From positions 41,245-105,244 of the forward strand of contig JACPKQ010000010.1 in NCBI GenBank assembly GCA_016186995.1: a stretch of 64,000 bases of DNA, read 5' to 3'. Origin of the DNA: Deltaproteobacteria bacterium (GTDB taxonomy: Bacteria > Bdellovibrionota > JACOXK01). Of this stretch, positions 19,676 to 63,907 are shown piece after piece (position 1 is the stretch's first letter; each line of letters begins with the position of its first letter). The position numbers were made by a program, and so were the translations under genes. The notes under the pieces are model-generated. The model did not search any database and was not told the origin of the DNA. It saw nothing but the letters and a program-made list of their open reading frames with translations.

Positions 19676-22193
19676 AAAAAACAATGTCATTCCAGCGAAG
19701 GCTGGAATCCAGTTTTTAAAAATTTTTATCTTTTTTATTTCTTTGCAGGTTTTTTCTGAGCCACAAGAACTTGTCAAAATAAATAAAATTAACTTTGAAG
19801 GGCTTCATGAATTTTCTGAAGTTATTACCCTCAAAAAAATAAACTTGAGTGAGTATTCTTATGTTGAAAGAGAAGAGATTGAAAAATATGGTAATAAAAT
19901 TAAAGAGCTTTATAAAAGAGAGGGTTTCTTAAAAGCAGTAGTAATCCCTCTTCTTAAAGAAGAGGGGAAAAATGAATTTAATCTTATTTTTAATATTCAA
20001 GAAAAGAACCGCAGTATTGTTCAAAGTATTTTTGTTGAAACAAATAATAAAAAAGAATTAGAAAGCCTTCTTTCTCTTGTTCAAGTAAAAAAAGGCGATT
20101 TTTTTATCTACTTTGAGTTAGAAAAAAATCTAGACATTTTTAAAAATGCACTTTACGAGAAGGGTTATGAAGAAATTGAGGATTTAAGTTTTGGGTATAT
20201 TCAATCTGATAAAGATCCTTATGTTGATGTTAAATTTATTGTTAAAACAGGCCCTAAGTATATTTATCATTTTGAAGATAATGAGACTTTTAAAAACAAA
20301 GAAATTTTAAATTTAAAAAAAGAGCAAAATTGGACGCCTGAAGATTTTGCTGACAAAATTGTCGAGTTTTACAAAAAGTCAGGGTTTCATTTTAGCAAAG
20401 TCTATTTTTCTCTTAAAGAAGATATATCTCAAAAAGAAAAAAATCTGTTCTATAAAATTGAAGAAGGTCCTCTTGTTACAATTGAAGAGGTTTTTTTTCA
20501 CGGGGCCATTTTTAGAAACTCGCTCTTTTACAAAGAGTATTTATTTGAAAAATCTAAGGATTCTCTATCTGTAAAAGCCTTTTATAGAAAATCATTTGAA
20601 TCTGGATTGCCTGTTGTTATCGAATATTTAGGAAACCAAGGATTTTTAAAGGCTCGTATCGATCGTACCCAGTATGATTTTTCTGGAGACAATAAAAAAG
20701 TTAAAATTCATGTTTATCTCTATGAAGGCCATCAAGTTAAAATCTCTAAAATACAGATTCAAGGTATTAAAAAACGTCCCTTAAGTGAAATTATTGATGT
20801 TTTGGGTGTAAAAGAAGGAGATGCATTTAATTTATCTTTTTTGGAAAGGTCTTTAACAAGGCTTAAAAGTTATTATCGTGAATTGGGGTTTTACTACTTT
20901 TCTTTGACAAGTGAAGAAAAAATAATTTTTGCAACCCCAACAAATATCATTCTTGATTTACATTTTAGAGAAGGTCCTCTTGTTACAGTTCGCGAGATCG
21001 AAGTAAAAAACAACCACAGAACTAAATCAAAAGTTATTAGAAGAGAACTCACCTTTAAAAAAGAAGATATTTTGAGATCTTCTTCTCTTTTTGAATCAGA
21101 AAATAAACTTTTACGCTTGGGGCTTTTTCAATTTGTAAATATTTTTGTTGAAAATGAAGGGACTCAAGACGCATCTAAAAATATTGTTGTTGAGGTTCAA
21201 GAAAGAAAATCTGGACTTTTTGAATTTGGCGGTGGAATTAAAACAGAGGAAGGTTTTCAGGCTTTTTCAGGCATTTTTTATAAAAACTTAGGTGGGTGGA
21301 ACAGAACCCTTTCTTTCCACGGAGATTTTAATAGAAAAATTGAGAACCCACAGTTTATTGAAAGAGAAATCAATTTTGGAGCTCAAGAACCTTATCTTTT
21401 TGGAGTTCCCTTTATTATGAGATTGAATGCCCTTAATAAGAAAAAAGATAAAAGAGCTTACGATGTGCATACTTGGGAGGGTATTGTTAGTTTTGAATCT
21501 AAAGTGTGGGATACTTTTCGAATGCTTTTTGAATACCATTTTTCTTTTAGAGATATTTTTAATACACTTAATCCTGCTGATGAAGAAAAAAAATTACTTG
21601 GAGTTATAAAACCCGCATTTTACTTGGACTATAGAAATAACGCTCTTAACCCCTCTAGGGGCACTTTCCATTCTTTTGGGATAGAGTATGCAAGCCCTCT
21701 TCTTGGATCAGATGACAAAAATCATTTTTATAAATTACTTGCTTCAACAAACTGGTATCTTCCCTTTGATCAAGAAGAAAATGTTGTTGTTGCTTTAGCT
21801 TTAAGGGGTGGTTTTGCCCAAAGTCTTTTAACGGGTTCGGGTATTCCTGCTGACCAAAGATTTTATTTAGGAGGGAGATCCACTATTAGAGGTTTTGAAG
21901 AAGATGAGCTGGGTGTTATTAGTACGACAAAAGAAATTACACAAACCTATTTTTTAAATTATAAAACTGAATTAAGATTTCCTCTATTTTGGAAAATAGG
22001 GGGAGCGATCTTTGTTGATGGGGGTAATGTTGCTTTTGGAGGACTTCGAGCGTTTTCTTCAAGAGAGGCTGCTGGTCTTGGAATTCGATATTTATCGCCT
22101 GTTGGACCTCTTTCTTTTGATGCTGGGTATAAATTAGATCGACAGCCCGGTGAATCAGCCTATCAAATCCATTTTTCAATTGGTGTTTTTTAA
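19647..22193 (+). CDS. Omp85-family outer-membrane assembly protein (BamA/TamA)
   Basis: Up to 848 residues. A hydrophobic signal segment (FLKIFIFFISLQVFS) precedes about six POTRA-like repeats (residues 40-490) and a beta-barrel with RFYLGGRSTIRGFEEDELG, the conserved Omp85 motif of strand L6. The last residue is Phe (SIGVF), as in a normal beta-signal. Starts at 19647 and 19662 are both possible; each overlaps tamB. Between the start and the signal core lies NVIPAKAGIQ, encoded by a complete palindromic repeat at 19685-19713, so the n-region was created or rebuilt by the repeat. Length and POTRA number suggest BamA; the pairing with tamB suggests TamA. Confidence 0.93.
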   Translation: MLNINMNLNKKNNVIPAKAGIQFLKIFIFFISLQVFSEPQELVKINKINFEGLHEFSEVITLKKINLSEYSYVEREEIEKYGNKIKELYKREGFLKAVVIPLLKEEGKNEFNLIFNIQEKNRSIVQSIFVETNNKKELESLLSLVQVKKGDFFIYFELEKNLDIFKNALYEKGYEEIEDLSFGYIQSDKDPYVDVKFIVKTGPKYIYHFEDNETFKNKEILNLKKEQNWTPEDFADKIVEFYKKSGFHFSKVYFSLKEDISQKEKNLFYKIEEGPLVTIEEVFFHGAIFRNSLFYKEYLFEKSKDSLSVKAFYRKSFESGLPVVIEYLGNQGFLKARIDRTQYDFSGDNKKVKIHVYLYEGHQVKISKIQIQGIKKRPLSEIIDVLGVKEGDAFNLSFLERSLTRLKSYYRELGFYYFSLTSEEKIIFATPTNIILDLHFREGPLVTVREIEVKNNHRTKSKVIRRELTFKKEDILRSSSLFESENKLLRLGLFQFVNIFVENEGTQDASKNIVVEVQERKSGLFEFGGGIKTEEGFQAFSGIFYKNLGGWNRTLSFHGDFNRKIENPQFIEREINFGAQEPYLFGVPFIMRLNALNKKKDKRAYDVHTWEGIVSFESKVWDTFRMLFEYHFSFRDIFNTLNPADEEKKLLGVIKPAFYLDYRNNALNPSRGTFHSFGIEYASPLLGSDDKNHFYKLLASTNWYLPFDQEENVVVALALRGGFAQSLLTGSGIPADQRFYLGGRSTIRGFEEDELGVISTTKEITQTYFLNYKTELRFPLFWKIGGAIFVDGGNVAFGGLRAFSSREAAGLGIRYLSPVGPLSFDAGYKLDRQPGESAYQIHFSIGVF
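19685..19713 (+). repeat. Palindromic repeat inside the Omp85 signal-peptide region
   Basis: TGTCATTCCAGCGAAGG followed by CTGGAATCCAGT, with an 8-bp stem ATTCCAGC/GCTGGAAT. It is in frame with the BamA/TamA reading frame, encoding VIPAKAGIQ, and lies 9 nt after the tamB stop. Confidence 0.9.
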
Positions 22194-45606: not shown

Positions 45607-45937
45607 GTTGCGATGAGCATGTGTGATGTTATCCACATATTTAAGCAGATTAGGTTCTTGAAATGACAGTGTCTTGCGCTTCATGGCTCGCTGTAGCTGT
45701 CCCAACGAACTCTCTGTCATCCCCGCGAAGGCGGGGATCCAGTATTCTATTTTATTACAAACCTTGGGCTCCGCTTTACTTCCGCTTCAGACACTGATCA
45801 TTTCTTCACATATTATGAAGTGTTTATTGAATAAAAAAAACATACTGCATACGCAATAGGGGGGGGGTAAGTGGGAGGTTTTGAATATAAGATATCTGAT
45901 ACAAGCTACCCAGACTTATTTACAGCTCATCGCAACA
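45607..45937. mobile_element. MITE-like unit with 12-bp terminal inverted repeats
   Basis: GTTGCGATGAGC at 45607-45618 and its exact reverse complement at 45926-45937 bound 331 bp without a gene. Inside lie the mosaic repeat (45650-45820, homologous to 34510-34692), a palindromic core (45715-45743) and a run of nine G (45859-45867). No transposase and no clear target duplication were seen. It fills the 394-bp gap 45549-45942. Confidence 0.55.
45715..45743 (+). repeat. Palindromic core TGTCATCCCCG...CGGGGATCCAGT
   Basis: 29-bp copy of the same core as at 19685 and 63879, with compensating changes in the stem (CCCCGC with GCGGGG). It sits inside the MITE-like unit. Confidence 0.9.
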
Positions 45938-51992: not shown

Positions 51993-52024
51993 TGTCATTC
52001 CACGGTTTAACCGGGGAATCCATT
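51993..52024 (+). repeat. Variant palindromic repeat upstream of thiI
   Basis: TGTCATTCCACGGTTT followed by AACCGGGGAATCCATT. It keeps the TGTCATTCC...GGAATCCA ends of the core family, but the inner stem is a different inverted repeat (CGGTTTAACCG). It ends 7 nt before the thiI GTG. Confidence 0.8.
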
Positions 52025-55866: not shown

Positions 55867-56005
55867 AAAACTCAGAGTAAGTTGCTAAACTAAAAAAATA
55901 TAATTTAGAACCCTTTCAAGAATATAAAAAAAGAATGAACTCTCATTGTTTTTAGTTATCTATTACATGCTGGTATCGACACCTCGTCATTGCGATTGTT
56001 CTCTC

Positions 56006-56069
56006 TGTCATTGCGAGCGCAGCGAAGCAATCTCATCAAAATGAAAGCTGACAAGCTTTTATTTTGATG
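56006..56069 (+). repeat. Left repeat module of the GIY-YIG unit: palindromic element plus hairpin
   Basis: TGTCATTGCGAGCG...GAAGCAATCTC (56006-56034) is followed by CATCAAAATGAAAGCT (56034-56049), GACA and AGCTTTTATTTTGATG (56054-56069), a 16-bp stem with one mismatch. A partial copy GTCATTGCGA lies at 55986-55995. The rest of 55867-56005 holds no gene. Confidence 0.85.
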
Positions 56070-56084
56070 TAATACAAGGCGCTA

Positions 56085-56369
56085 ATGAAGAATGGGTATG
56101 TTTATATTTTAACAAATAAATTCAATAGGGTTCTTTATATTGGCGTTACAAGTAACTTGAGTAGAAGAATGGAAGAACACAAATTAAAGTTAGTTGAAGG
56201 CTTTACTAAGAAGTATAACCTCTCGAAATTAGTATATTTTGAAGAGCTTCCAAGTATTATTGAAGCTATAGAAGCTGAAAAGAAAATTAAAGCAGGTTCA
56301 AGGAAAAAGAAACTAGAACTGATTAAAAAAGTGAATCCTCAATGGACTGACTTATCACAATCATTATAA
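56085..56369 (+). CDS. Single-domain GIY-YIG endonuclease-like protein
   Basis: 94 residues, the whole of a GIY-YIG (UPF0213/YhbQ-like) domain and nothing more. The YVYILTN and VLYIGVTSNLSRRMEEHK segments carry the two tyrosines and the catalytic arginine. EAIEAEKKIKAGSRKKKLELI holds the metal-binding glutamate, and NPQWTDLS is the common end. Proteins of this type are weak DNA nucleases of unclear role. The gene is framed by inverted palindromic elements and two strong hairpins. A possible promoter (CTGACA 56048-56053, N16, TAATAC 56070-56075) lies in the left hairpin, 9 nt before the ATG. AAGG nearby could act as a Shine-Dalgarno site. Confidence 0.88.
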   Translation: MKNGYVYILTNKFNRVLYIGVTSNLSRRMEEHKLKLVEGFTKKYNLSKLVYFEELPSIIEAIEAEKKIKAGSRKKKLELIKKVNPQWTDLSQSL

Positions 56370-56372
56370 ACA

Positions 56373-56440
56373 AATCTCCTAGAATCTTTTCAAGATTCTA
56401 GGAGATTGCCACGTCGCCCTTTGGGCTCCTCGCAATGACA
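56373..56440 (-). repeat. Right repeat module of the GIY-YIG unit: perfect hairpin plus inverted palindromic element
   Basis: AATCTCCTAGAATCTT (56373-56388), TTC and AAGATTCTAGGAGATT (56392-56407) make a perfect 16-bp stem with a 3-nt loop. The reverse complement of 56402-56440 begins TGTCATTGCGAGGAG and ends GTGGCAATCTC, an inverted copy of the left element with a different centre. The hairpin lacks a T-run, so it is not a classical terminator. Confidence 0.9.
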
Positions 56441-56462
56441 AACAAAAACACACAATGACGGG

Positions 56463-56544
56463 AGTGCACACTTCAACTAGAAGCAGAGACGACGAGATCC
56501 CCGCTGGAGCCTGTCCTCGACCTGATCGGGGACGGGGATGGCAT
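56463..56544 (-). repeat. Composite palindromic repeat with GTGCACACTTCAA flank
   Basis: GTGCACACTTCAA (56463-56475) matches the flank at 693-705. The core 56496-56544 begins GATCCCCG and ends CGGGGATGGCAT, with further internal dyad symmetry (GTCC...GGAC). The 56370-56635 gap is almost entirely repeats. Confidence 0.8.
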
Positions 56545-57113: not shown

Positions 57114-58694
57114 TTAAATGAGTCTCTTATATTCTTTAATTTCTTTTCTCCACACAGGAACCCCGCAGTAACGATCCCCTTCAGGGCAATAGGGTTTTTT
57201 CTCTGCCTGTTTTCGAAGATAACAAGGCGCAAGAATGTGTTTTCCTATAAGAGGAAAAACTTGATTTACTTGAACAAGCTCATCAATGCTTGAATAAAAA
57301 ATTTCTTCTTGTGCGTTATAACATGTTCTTAATTTCCACTTATGATGAAAGTTTAAAAGATCTCCTGATTCTTCAAACCGAATAGCATGAGCATTAGGTA
57401 AAAGATAATGTGCATTTTCAAAGCTTTCACCTTTTTCTAAAAGTTGGTTGATGGCTTTATAAGAATTTTCCATTGTTTTTTCATAAACCTCTTCAGCCTG
57501 AGGAGTTTGTTTGATAACAAGTGGCGTAATGTAATCGGGCTTTCCATGATAGTGCGTTTCAAGCACAGGGCGAGAGCCGGGGGTCATTCTATGACGTTGT
57601 TCTTGCGAATCGGCTGTGTGGCTTAGTTTTTTTCTAAAAGTAAAATGAACATGGCACAGTGCACGAGAAAGCTTTGTGTGCATGTTTGGATTTAAAGTAT
57701 CAGAAAGATAAGGATTGTATTTTGGGTTTAACACCCTTTCGATGGCCTCATGGTCTGGAAGATTTTTGTGAGGAATACCCAAGATAGTTCTTACAGACCT
57801 TGCTAAGGTATGTTCTGCATTTATTTTATAATCAATGAGTTTCGACCAACGCCCTTCAAGTGTGTGATCAAATTCTTTTGTAAAACTACTGGATTCCAGC
57901 TTTCGCTGGAATGACATAGAGGGTGTTGTTCCAAACTCTTCCATCAGTTTAAATTCTGGAGTTGCTTCAAGTGGATAAGGATCTTGCAATTCTTTTTCAA
58001 AAAGTGGGTCGTGTTTTCTAACTTCACTAATCATTTGATCGATCACAAGTTTTTGCTCGCAGGGTGTGTCAAAGATGGAAGCCATTTTATAATAACGCAT
58101 TAAGGTAAGGGCACTAATGGTGTGATAAAGATAAGCATGCGTTGCGATGGGTAAACAATAACGGGCGACTTCGTAAGTTTTTTTAAGAACAAGTGGGCCC
58201 CACTTTTCTCTATTTTTAAGTCTGTGTGGAAATATTTTGTAATATTCTTTTTGAATAGTTGGTTTTACAAGTTCAATCAGTTGATTATAATTTTCCATTT
58301 GCATGGAAAGTGCATCTTCATAAATTTTTAGGTTTTCACTTTTAAGATCTGGAATATGAAAGTTATCAGGTTGCACCCTTACATATCTTTGAGAAACCTG
58401 TTCTGAATTATAAAATGGGTGAGAGTGCAAAAAACTCCAAATAAAACTTCGTGACACGGCATCCATACTAAAAACAAAGTGGGCATGCTGGCGTGTTGTG
58501 AGGTGCCCTGCTTCAAGTGTGCTTTGCGCAATGCGGTCTCTTAAGGCACGTGATTTTTCATCTTTATCAACTTCTTCTGGAGTAATAATACCCTTTGATG
58601 AATAGCAGGTTCTTGCTGTAGCTATGGAAAGATTGTAGGGTTTTGGAATGATCTCGATCAACTTGATTTTGGGAGATTTACGATTGAATTCCAT
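57114..58694 (-). CDS. Double ThyX-like protein (FAD-dependent thymidylate synthase family)
   Basis: 526 residues, about twice a normal ThyX. The N-half has EAGHLTTRQHAHFVFSMDAVSR and SEQVSQRYVRV, matching the second part of the ThyX signature. The C-half repeats the fold with LCHVHFTFRKKLSH and EQRHRMTPGSRP, which contains the RHR part. Neither half alone has the full RHRxxSxNExSxR motif. Residues 260-270 (SMSFQRKLESS) are encoded by a palindromic repeat in the linker. ThyX makes dTMP with methylene-tetrahydrofolate and FADH2; whether this long form does so is uncertain. No thyA is seen. Confidence 0.85.
   Translation of the reverse strand: MEFNRKSPKIKLIEIIPKPYNLSIATARTCYSSKGIITPEEVDKDEKSRALRDRIAQSTLEAGHLTTRQHAHFVFSMDAVSRSFIWSFLHSHPFYNSEQVSQRYVRVQPDNFHIPDLKSENLKIYEDALSMQMENYNQLIELVKPTIQKEYYKIFPHRLKNREKWGPLVLKKTYEVARYCLPIATHAYLYHTISALTLMRYYKMASIFDTPCEQKLVIDQMISEVRKHDPLFEKELQDPYPLEATPEFKLMEEFGTTPSMSFQRKLESSSFTKEFDHTLEGRWSKLIDYKINAEHTLARSVRTILGIPHKNLPDHEAIERVLNPKYNPYLSDTLNPNMHTKLSRALCHVHFTFRKKLSHTADSQEQRHRMTPGSRPVLETHYHGKPDYITPLVIKQTPQAEEVYEKTMENSYKAINQLLEKGESFENAHYLLPNAHAIRFEESGDLLNFHHKWKLRTCYNAQEEIFYSSIDELVQVNQVFPLIGKHILAPCYLRKQAEKKPYCPEGDRYCGVPVWRKEIKEYKRLI
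57888..57917 (-). repeat. Palindromic repeat inside the ThyX-like coding region
   Basis: On the minus strand TGTCATTCCAGCGAAAG then CTGGAATCCAGT, nearly identical to the copy at 19685. It is in frame and encodes the linker peptide MSFQRKLESS between the two ThyX-like halves. Confidence 0.92.
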
Positions 58695-63878: not shown

Positions 63879-63907
63879 TGTCATCCCTGCGCAGGCAGGG
63901 ATCCAGT
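63879..63907 (+). repeat. Palindromic core TGTCATCCCTGC...GCAGGGATCCAGT
   Basis: 29-bp copy of the core family with a CCCTGC/GCAGGG stem. The following ACAACCTTGG at 63918-63927 also follows the core at 45715 in a similar form. The rest of 63821-64000 holds no gene I can support. Confidence 0.9.

Follow-up and report, generated by a model that had tools for sequence, protein, structure and literature searches.

The window, i.e. the whole 64-kb stretch of DNA that was analysed, contains at positions 56006–56440 (forward strand) a unit of 435 bp, which starts with TGTC, ends with GACA and is built as palindrome, hairpin, gene, hairpin and inverted palindrome, an architecture shared by its relatives. 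The gene (56085–56369, plus strand, stop codon included) encodes a GIY-YIG nuclease of 94 amino acids (PF01541, E 1.2e-15). On its left side lie a CGTC-like REP element TGTCATTGCGAGCGCAGCGAAGCAATCTC (56006–56034, plus strand) and hairpin 1 (56034–56069, no strand assigned), the 16-bp arms of which have one mismatch (94% complementary). On its right side they are mirrored by hairpin 2 of the CTCCTAGAAT..ATTCTAGGAG type (56373–56407, again without strand), with 16-bp arms that are 100% complementary, and by an inverted CGTC-like REP element GAGATTGCCACGTCGCCCTTTGGGCTCCTCGCAATGACA (56402–56440, minus strand). Both elements have the stem ATTGC/GCAAT and a TGTC tag facing outward, and an additional degenerate copy of the tag, CGTCATTGCGAT (55986–55996, plus strand), is situated immediately outside the unit. 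The symmetrical bracketing of the gene, claimed in the preliminary description, was thereby confirmed, and the coordinates and sequences given there for the gene, elements and hairpins all proved correct on recheck. As single-stranded DNA both hairpins are far from chance (z −6.3 for 56034–56069 and −6.6 for 56373–56407). The left element of 29 nt folded alone was not beyond chance (z +0.7), which leaves a stable single-stranded hairpin unsupported; its palindrome is for this reason read as a short one, consisting of a 5-bp outer stem, a mismatch and a 12-nt interior that includes a weak inner stem.

The protein is a single domain and has the conserved catalytic residues expected for membership in the GIY-YIG fold (Y7, Y18, G20, R28, E65 and N84), which together with H32 are invariant in 44 relatives. 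Its AlphaFold2 model has a pLDDT of 96. The nearest solved folds are those of the UPF0213 protein BH0048 and Slx1, followed by UvrC and I-TevI; UPF0213 structure 1zg2 was matched with E 2e-4 by sequence and Z 7.2 by structure, Slx1 with Z about 7 over 92 residues. Slx1 cuts branched DNA. The Slx1-like fold of the model would suit a hairpin or a cruciform as a target, though the fold does not prove the function and DNA cleavage by this protein is only inferred.

Framing of related nuclease genes across bacteria

Scanning of GTDB genomes registered more than 500 relatives of the nuclease, the best 80 of which have 50–66% identity and are spread over the bacterial domain. An element was counted if GTCA[TC] with three further stem bases and a complementary end was found within 250 bp of the gene. 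A stricter stem rule (AT plus 4) was replaced by AT plus 3 before the tests on stems and trees, because stems mismatch after five pairs and the stricter rule misses most elements. The preliminary description had proposed checking whether homologues are consistently framed by the same elements, and the answer turned out to be positive: for 89 relatives with enough flank an outward-facing element was found on the left in 71, on the right in 66 and on both sides in 56, versus 0/296 pairs (7/296 per side) in control windows taken 800–2400 bp away and 0/1780 framed pairs in dinucleotide shuffles. Both controls were scored with the strict GTCAT rule and 200-bp flanks, for which the relatives gave 48/89 pairs. 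At least one element in any orientation was present in 82 relatives, and the remaining 7/89 had none by the pattern used. Framing was likewise demonstrated for the loci from the genome collection, 51/76 of those with enough flank being framed on both sides and 74/76 having at least one element; these 76 loci represent 24 named phyla plus unassigned genomes. In the same loci 37/69 nuclease genes versus 8/269 other open reading frames were framed, and none of 16 other GIY-YIG genes (14 YhbQ-like ones of the phylum and two more of the window's genome) had elements on both sides.

In Azospirillum lipoferum 4B, Novosphingobium aromaticivorans and Sinorhizobium meliloti the gene adjoins repeats of the CGTC type, which are perfect inverted palindromes of 29 bp in N. 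aromaticivorans and CCTC-tagged in S. meliloti. Long perfect stems are found in palindromes of Azospirillum and Shinella. The homologue of Neisseria gonorrhoeae is located among ATTCCCGC..GCGGGAAT repeats, which resemble dRS3. A separate observation concerns some Flavobacterium species, where the palindrome end CGCAATGAC appears to provide the following gene with its ATG start (right flanks of L169 and L171).

Dispersed repeats and presence of the gene

The repeat core GTCATTGCGAG has 80 exact copies in the 1.68-Mb genome of the window, while its reversed control has 0. Just two exact copies fall within the window and both of them frame the GIY-YIG gene. In several contigs a repeat copy lies no further than about 100 bases from the start (C2:95, C7:37 and C15:43 in G000), so that the assembly may break at palindromes and the true copy number may exceed 80. 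Related palindromes with other stems are scattered through the window, as the preliminary description stated: 16 matches to the pattern were found, against a mean of 6.8 and a maximum of 12 in shuffles, and about six look genuine. Palindromes of the same plan with the stems TTCC or TCCC occupy positions 725–747, 19686–19708, 45716–45738, 51994–52019, 57893–57915 and 63880–63902. The genome therefore has more than one repeat family, and no more than one close nuclease homologue was detected in it.

Organization of the repeats was analysed in 30 loci of the window's genome, which do not represent the whole genome. Adjacent palindromes had tags facing outward in 18/25 pairs, and the typical dimers, of 72–107 bp, have a hairpin at their centre (TGTC-palindrome-hairpin-inverted palindrome-GACA). 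Central hairpins of dispersed dimers include the type observed at 56373–56407; the hairpins at the gene are, hence, not unique to it. Since dispersed dimers share their plan with the ends of the gene unit, the latter looks like a dimer carrying a gene inside. Among 147 distinct outward dimers from all loci retrieved, lengths cluster at 70–99 bp and the base preceding GTC is T in 98 cases and C in 38. The outermost bases of the two ends agree in 110/147 dimers (T/T in 85 and C/C in 25), and no target-site duplication of 2–9 bp was detected above permutations in this set.

The preliminary description had proposed testing whether the number of elements correlates with the presence of the gene, and this correlation was observed. 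A close homologue (E below 1e-20) is present in 10/97 genomes of the phylum, belonging to at least four separate lineages, and the repeat numbers in these ten are 12, 13, 29, 51, 58, 67, 74, 80, 85 and 461. Without the gene 85/87 genomes hold 0–5 repeats (Fisher p 5e-12). The two exceptions, with 15 and 17 repeats, are 61–71% complete, and a sister in the genus has the gene. Across 160 genomes of Flavobacterium the median repeat number was 16.5 where a close homologue is present, 5 where there is a family member, 2 where there is only a weak one and 1 where there is none (p 7e-9 for close homologue versus none); many genomes with a family member hold few repeats. Neither test, for the phylum or for Flavobacterium, was corrected for shared ancestry. 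In one Flavobacterium genome (G245) 25 repeats were registered and no small GIY-YIG gene was found, which may mean that the gene was lost recently, that the genome is incomplete or that it is a counter-example. Another exception is the repeat-rich G264, the two small GIY-YIG genes of which are of the tRNA-side type described below.

Stem specificity, empty sites and alternative explanations

In 35/56 loci the nearest stem on the left is the same as that on the right, with a permutation mean of 14 and a maximum of 25. If stems are classified as TTGC or other, the protein tree of 86 loci requires 9 changes of class, versus 28.4 upon free shuffling (minimum 20) and 22.7 upon shuffling within phyla (minimum 15). 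Horizontal spread is evident from the same tree, on which the host phylum changes 49 times. As stem class follows the protein tree across all these changes, the palindrome and the nuclease have therefore moved between phyla together. The trees were built on 96 columns and many of their forks are thus weak, the shuffle controls being run on identical trees. The match between nuclease clade and stem was demonstrated within Flavobacterium alone as well, where 3 changes were counted for 58 loci versus 19.5 in shuffles (minimum 14) and paralogue clades carry separate stems (TTGC, TTCC, TTTC or TGCT), often in one genome. Paralogues of the same genome are 70–79% identical, i.e. old and diverged, and differ in their stems. 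Such divergence rules out the gene as a multi-copy proliferating insertion sequence. It rather behaves like RAYT, with about one enzyme for each family of repeats and with many small repeats. The exception is one closer pair of genes in repeat-rich contig ends (G277).

Empty sites, which the preliminary description had suggested looking for, were found in two genera. In A. lipoferum the unit is located between sufB and sufC, which are adjacent and free of the unit in A. ramasamyi, A. oryzae and strain B510 (91–93% identical DNA). A Flavobacterium unit of 386 bp separates a pair of genes which in many congeners adjoin each other directly or almost directly. The gene and the palindromes are missing together from the empty sites of both genera, and with its inverted ends and its insertion at an empty site the unit satisfies one of the criteria applied to insertion sequences. 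Its boundaries are known only to a few bases, since the genomes with empty sites are 7–30% diverged. Strains of Planktothrix agardhii differ in another manner: No.66 has the gene within an array of palindromes, and two others have the array without the gene. In Shinella PSBB067 the same sufB-sufC gap contains a different member of the family with a different stem, hence an independent insertion. The sharing of this gap by distantly related GIY-YIG units (L148 and L215) may be a matter of chance or of a preferred site. Carriage of the gene by phages found no support, with 0 matches in 50,697 phage records.

Three alternatives can be proposed, each of which fails on at least one result. According to the first one, the gene is homing: a selfish nuclease cuts its own palindrome and copies its gene into existing dimers, and the palindromes spread in some other way. 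The position between two palindromes is that of a homing gene in its own recognition site, the closest PHROGs to the nuclease are homing endonucleases, and the array of P. agardhii occurs both with and without the gene. However, homing predicts the same gene in many dimers of a genome, in place of about one gene per stem type and the diverged paralogues observed, and it does not agree with the almost complete lack of palindromes in genomes without the gene or with their absence along with it from the empty sites of Azospirillum and Flavobacterium. We consider this explanation improbable.

Even less credit can be given to hitch-hiking, in which RAYT or another transposase moves the palindromes, the GIY-YIG gene being merely carried along as a passenger or encoding a trapped housekeeping nuclease. 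Intergenic DNA does commonly hold palindromes, and genes for Y1 transposases are present in 7/10 repeat-bearing genomes, but a search for Y1/RAYT transposase (PF01797) gave 0 matches across the window's whole genome and a Y1 transposase is missing from two of its repeat-rich relatives too; no transposase flanked by CGTC repeats was reported by Di Nocera et al. in 2013 (PMC3733652). A passenger also leaves the match of stems to the nuclease tree unexplained, and framing of the nuclease gene far exceeds that of other open reading frames. Finally, a host nuclease that resolves cognate hairpins at replication and is kept near palindromes without spreading them would be consistent with the Slx1-like fold and would equally predict sequence matching and co-occurrence, but it predicts neither packaging of the gene inside palindromes nor insertion into empty sites nor joint exchange between phyla, and is hardly tenable.

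Relation to known systems and possible mechanism

The explanation that we favour, and regard as probable, is that the unit represents the member carrying the enzyme in a REP-like system, in which a partnership of the REP/RAYT kind is maintained with an unrelated Slx1-like nuclease, mobilisation of the repeats being inferred. The preliminary description had compared the layout to REP elements with RAYT; the layout itself, the framing, the copy number and the empty sites support this likeness, but a catalytic role in the spread of palindromes remains an inference. In both systems (REPtron and REPIN for REP/RAYT: PMC2817692, PMC3116915, PMC3733652) inverted palindromes frame one enzyme gene, every family of repeats is paired with an enzyme of its own, non-autonomous dimers are dispersed and several pairs may coexist in a genome, so the GIY-YIG system meets the RAYT/REPtron criterion of a gene framed by inverted, repeat-specific REPs. 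REP/RAYT, in contrast, relies on an HUH Y1 transposase and a GTAG tag, instead of GIY-YIG (PF01541) and YGTC. Because the class of enzyme and the tag differ, the unit is REP/RAYT-like by architecture and yet not a member of REP/RAYT.

The repeats themselves are closely akin to CGTC-tagged REPs, described as dimer-forming palindromes with a CGTC or TGTC tag (CCTC in Sinorhizobium) and a stem starting with AT, in hosts including A. lipoferum, N. aromaticivorans and S. meliloti, and apparently without a dedicated transposase (PMC3733652). The window repeats meet both the criterion of a terminal unpaired tag (CGTC, TGTC or CCTC) and that of the AT stem. The published families 1–4, in contrast, have an 8–9-bp stem and a 4–5-nt loop, whereas the window element has a 5-bp outer stem and a larger loop; the tail is CTC instead of CCA, the latter being seen in Azospirillum. 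As stem length and tail of the four families are not matched, the repeats are, on sequence criteria, designated only as CGTC-like, close kin of CGTC-tagged REPs outside families 1–4. Among proteins, UPF0213/YhbQ-like ones have the same size and fold, but examples of the phylum are not framed by palindromes. Slx1 shares the fold, whereas the bacterial protein of 94 residues has neither a RING domain nor an Slx4 partner. With GIY-YIG homing endonucleases of the I-TevI type it has in common the catalytic domain and a selfish context, but it lacks their separate DNA-binding domain (a criterion thus unmet), is associated with no intron or intein and is not copied to many sites. No earlier description of the GIY-YIG/palindrome pairing was found in open-access literature; preprints and most subscription papers were outside the scope of this search, so novelty is provisional.

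For a REP-like system of this kind the following scheme can be proposed. Short YGTC-tagged palindromes are scattered in the genome chiefly as dimers of the above-mentioned 72–107 bp, one of which contains the cognate nuclease gene. The nuclease would recognise its palindrome through both the tag and the stem, the DNA probably being extruded into a hairpin or a cruciform, as suggested by the Slx1-like fold, and would nick or cut it at or near the YGTC tag; replication or repair of the host might then copy or insert the short dimer elsewhere. The version with the gene would follow this route too, though seldom, and would reach other species through horizontal transfer. Both the mobilisation of the repeats by the nuclease and the way in which it happens are inferred, in the absence of biochemical evidence. 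Since GIY-YIG enzymes are hydrolytic and do not rejoin DNA strands, no catalyst is known here for the insertion step. Whether palindromes of the CGTC type are indeed mobilised by a dedicated GIY-YIG nuclease and host repair, with no recombinase needed, we consider an evenly balanced question. If they are, transposition can be driven by a lone hydrolytic structure-specific nuclease in a minimal element, and enzyme and palindrome have co-evolved across the bacterial domain.

Bacterial genomes abound in short palindromic repeats. The enzyme of their GTAG class is RAYT, and now the CGTC class has a candidate too. Since the pairing recurs in at least 24 phyla and tracks repeat abundance, the GIY-YIG nuclease is a strong candidate for the agent, missing until now, by which a large class of bacterial palindromes is spread. 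This predicts that each nuclease prefers the stem of its own palindrome. If correct, it would explain the spread of the whole repeat class and make available natural combinations of a nuclease of 94 residues with a short target DNA; it would also raise the question of how a nuclease on its own suffices for an element to spread.

Two further sets of nuclease genes were noticed in the course of this analysis. Genes with a DUF559 endonuclease domain adjoin palindromes of another type, CCCCTCCC..GGGAGGGG or CCCTCACCCTAACCCTCTCCCC.., at 6/6 plasmid loci (L216:801–1211, L223, L224, L225, L226 and L227), mostly lying between them. This was judged by eye and is unquantified, but the DUF559 genes may form a second family of nucleases that has palindromes of its own. 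The sufB-sufC gap of Sphingomonas contains one of these genes. In Flavobacterium, distant small GIY-YIG genes (30–40% identical) directly adjoin tRNA genes (L278:1420–3202, L281, L286 and L292); this set looks like a tRNA-targeting relative without palindromes of the YGTC type. At several of these genes the 3′ end of the tRNA and the terminator are duplicated past the gene, and in one Flavobacterium genome tRNA-Pro is followed by five copies of 350 bp in tandem.
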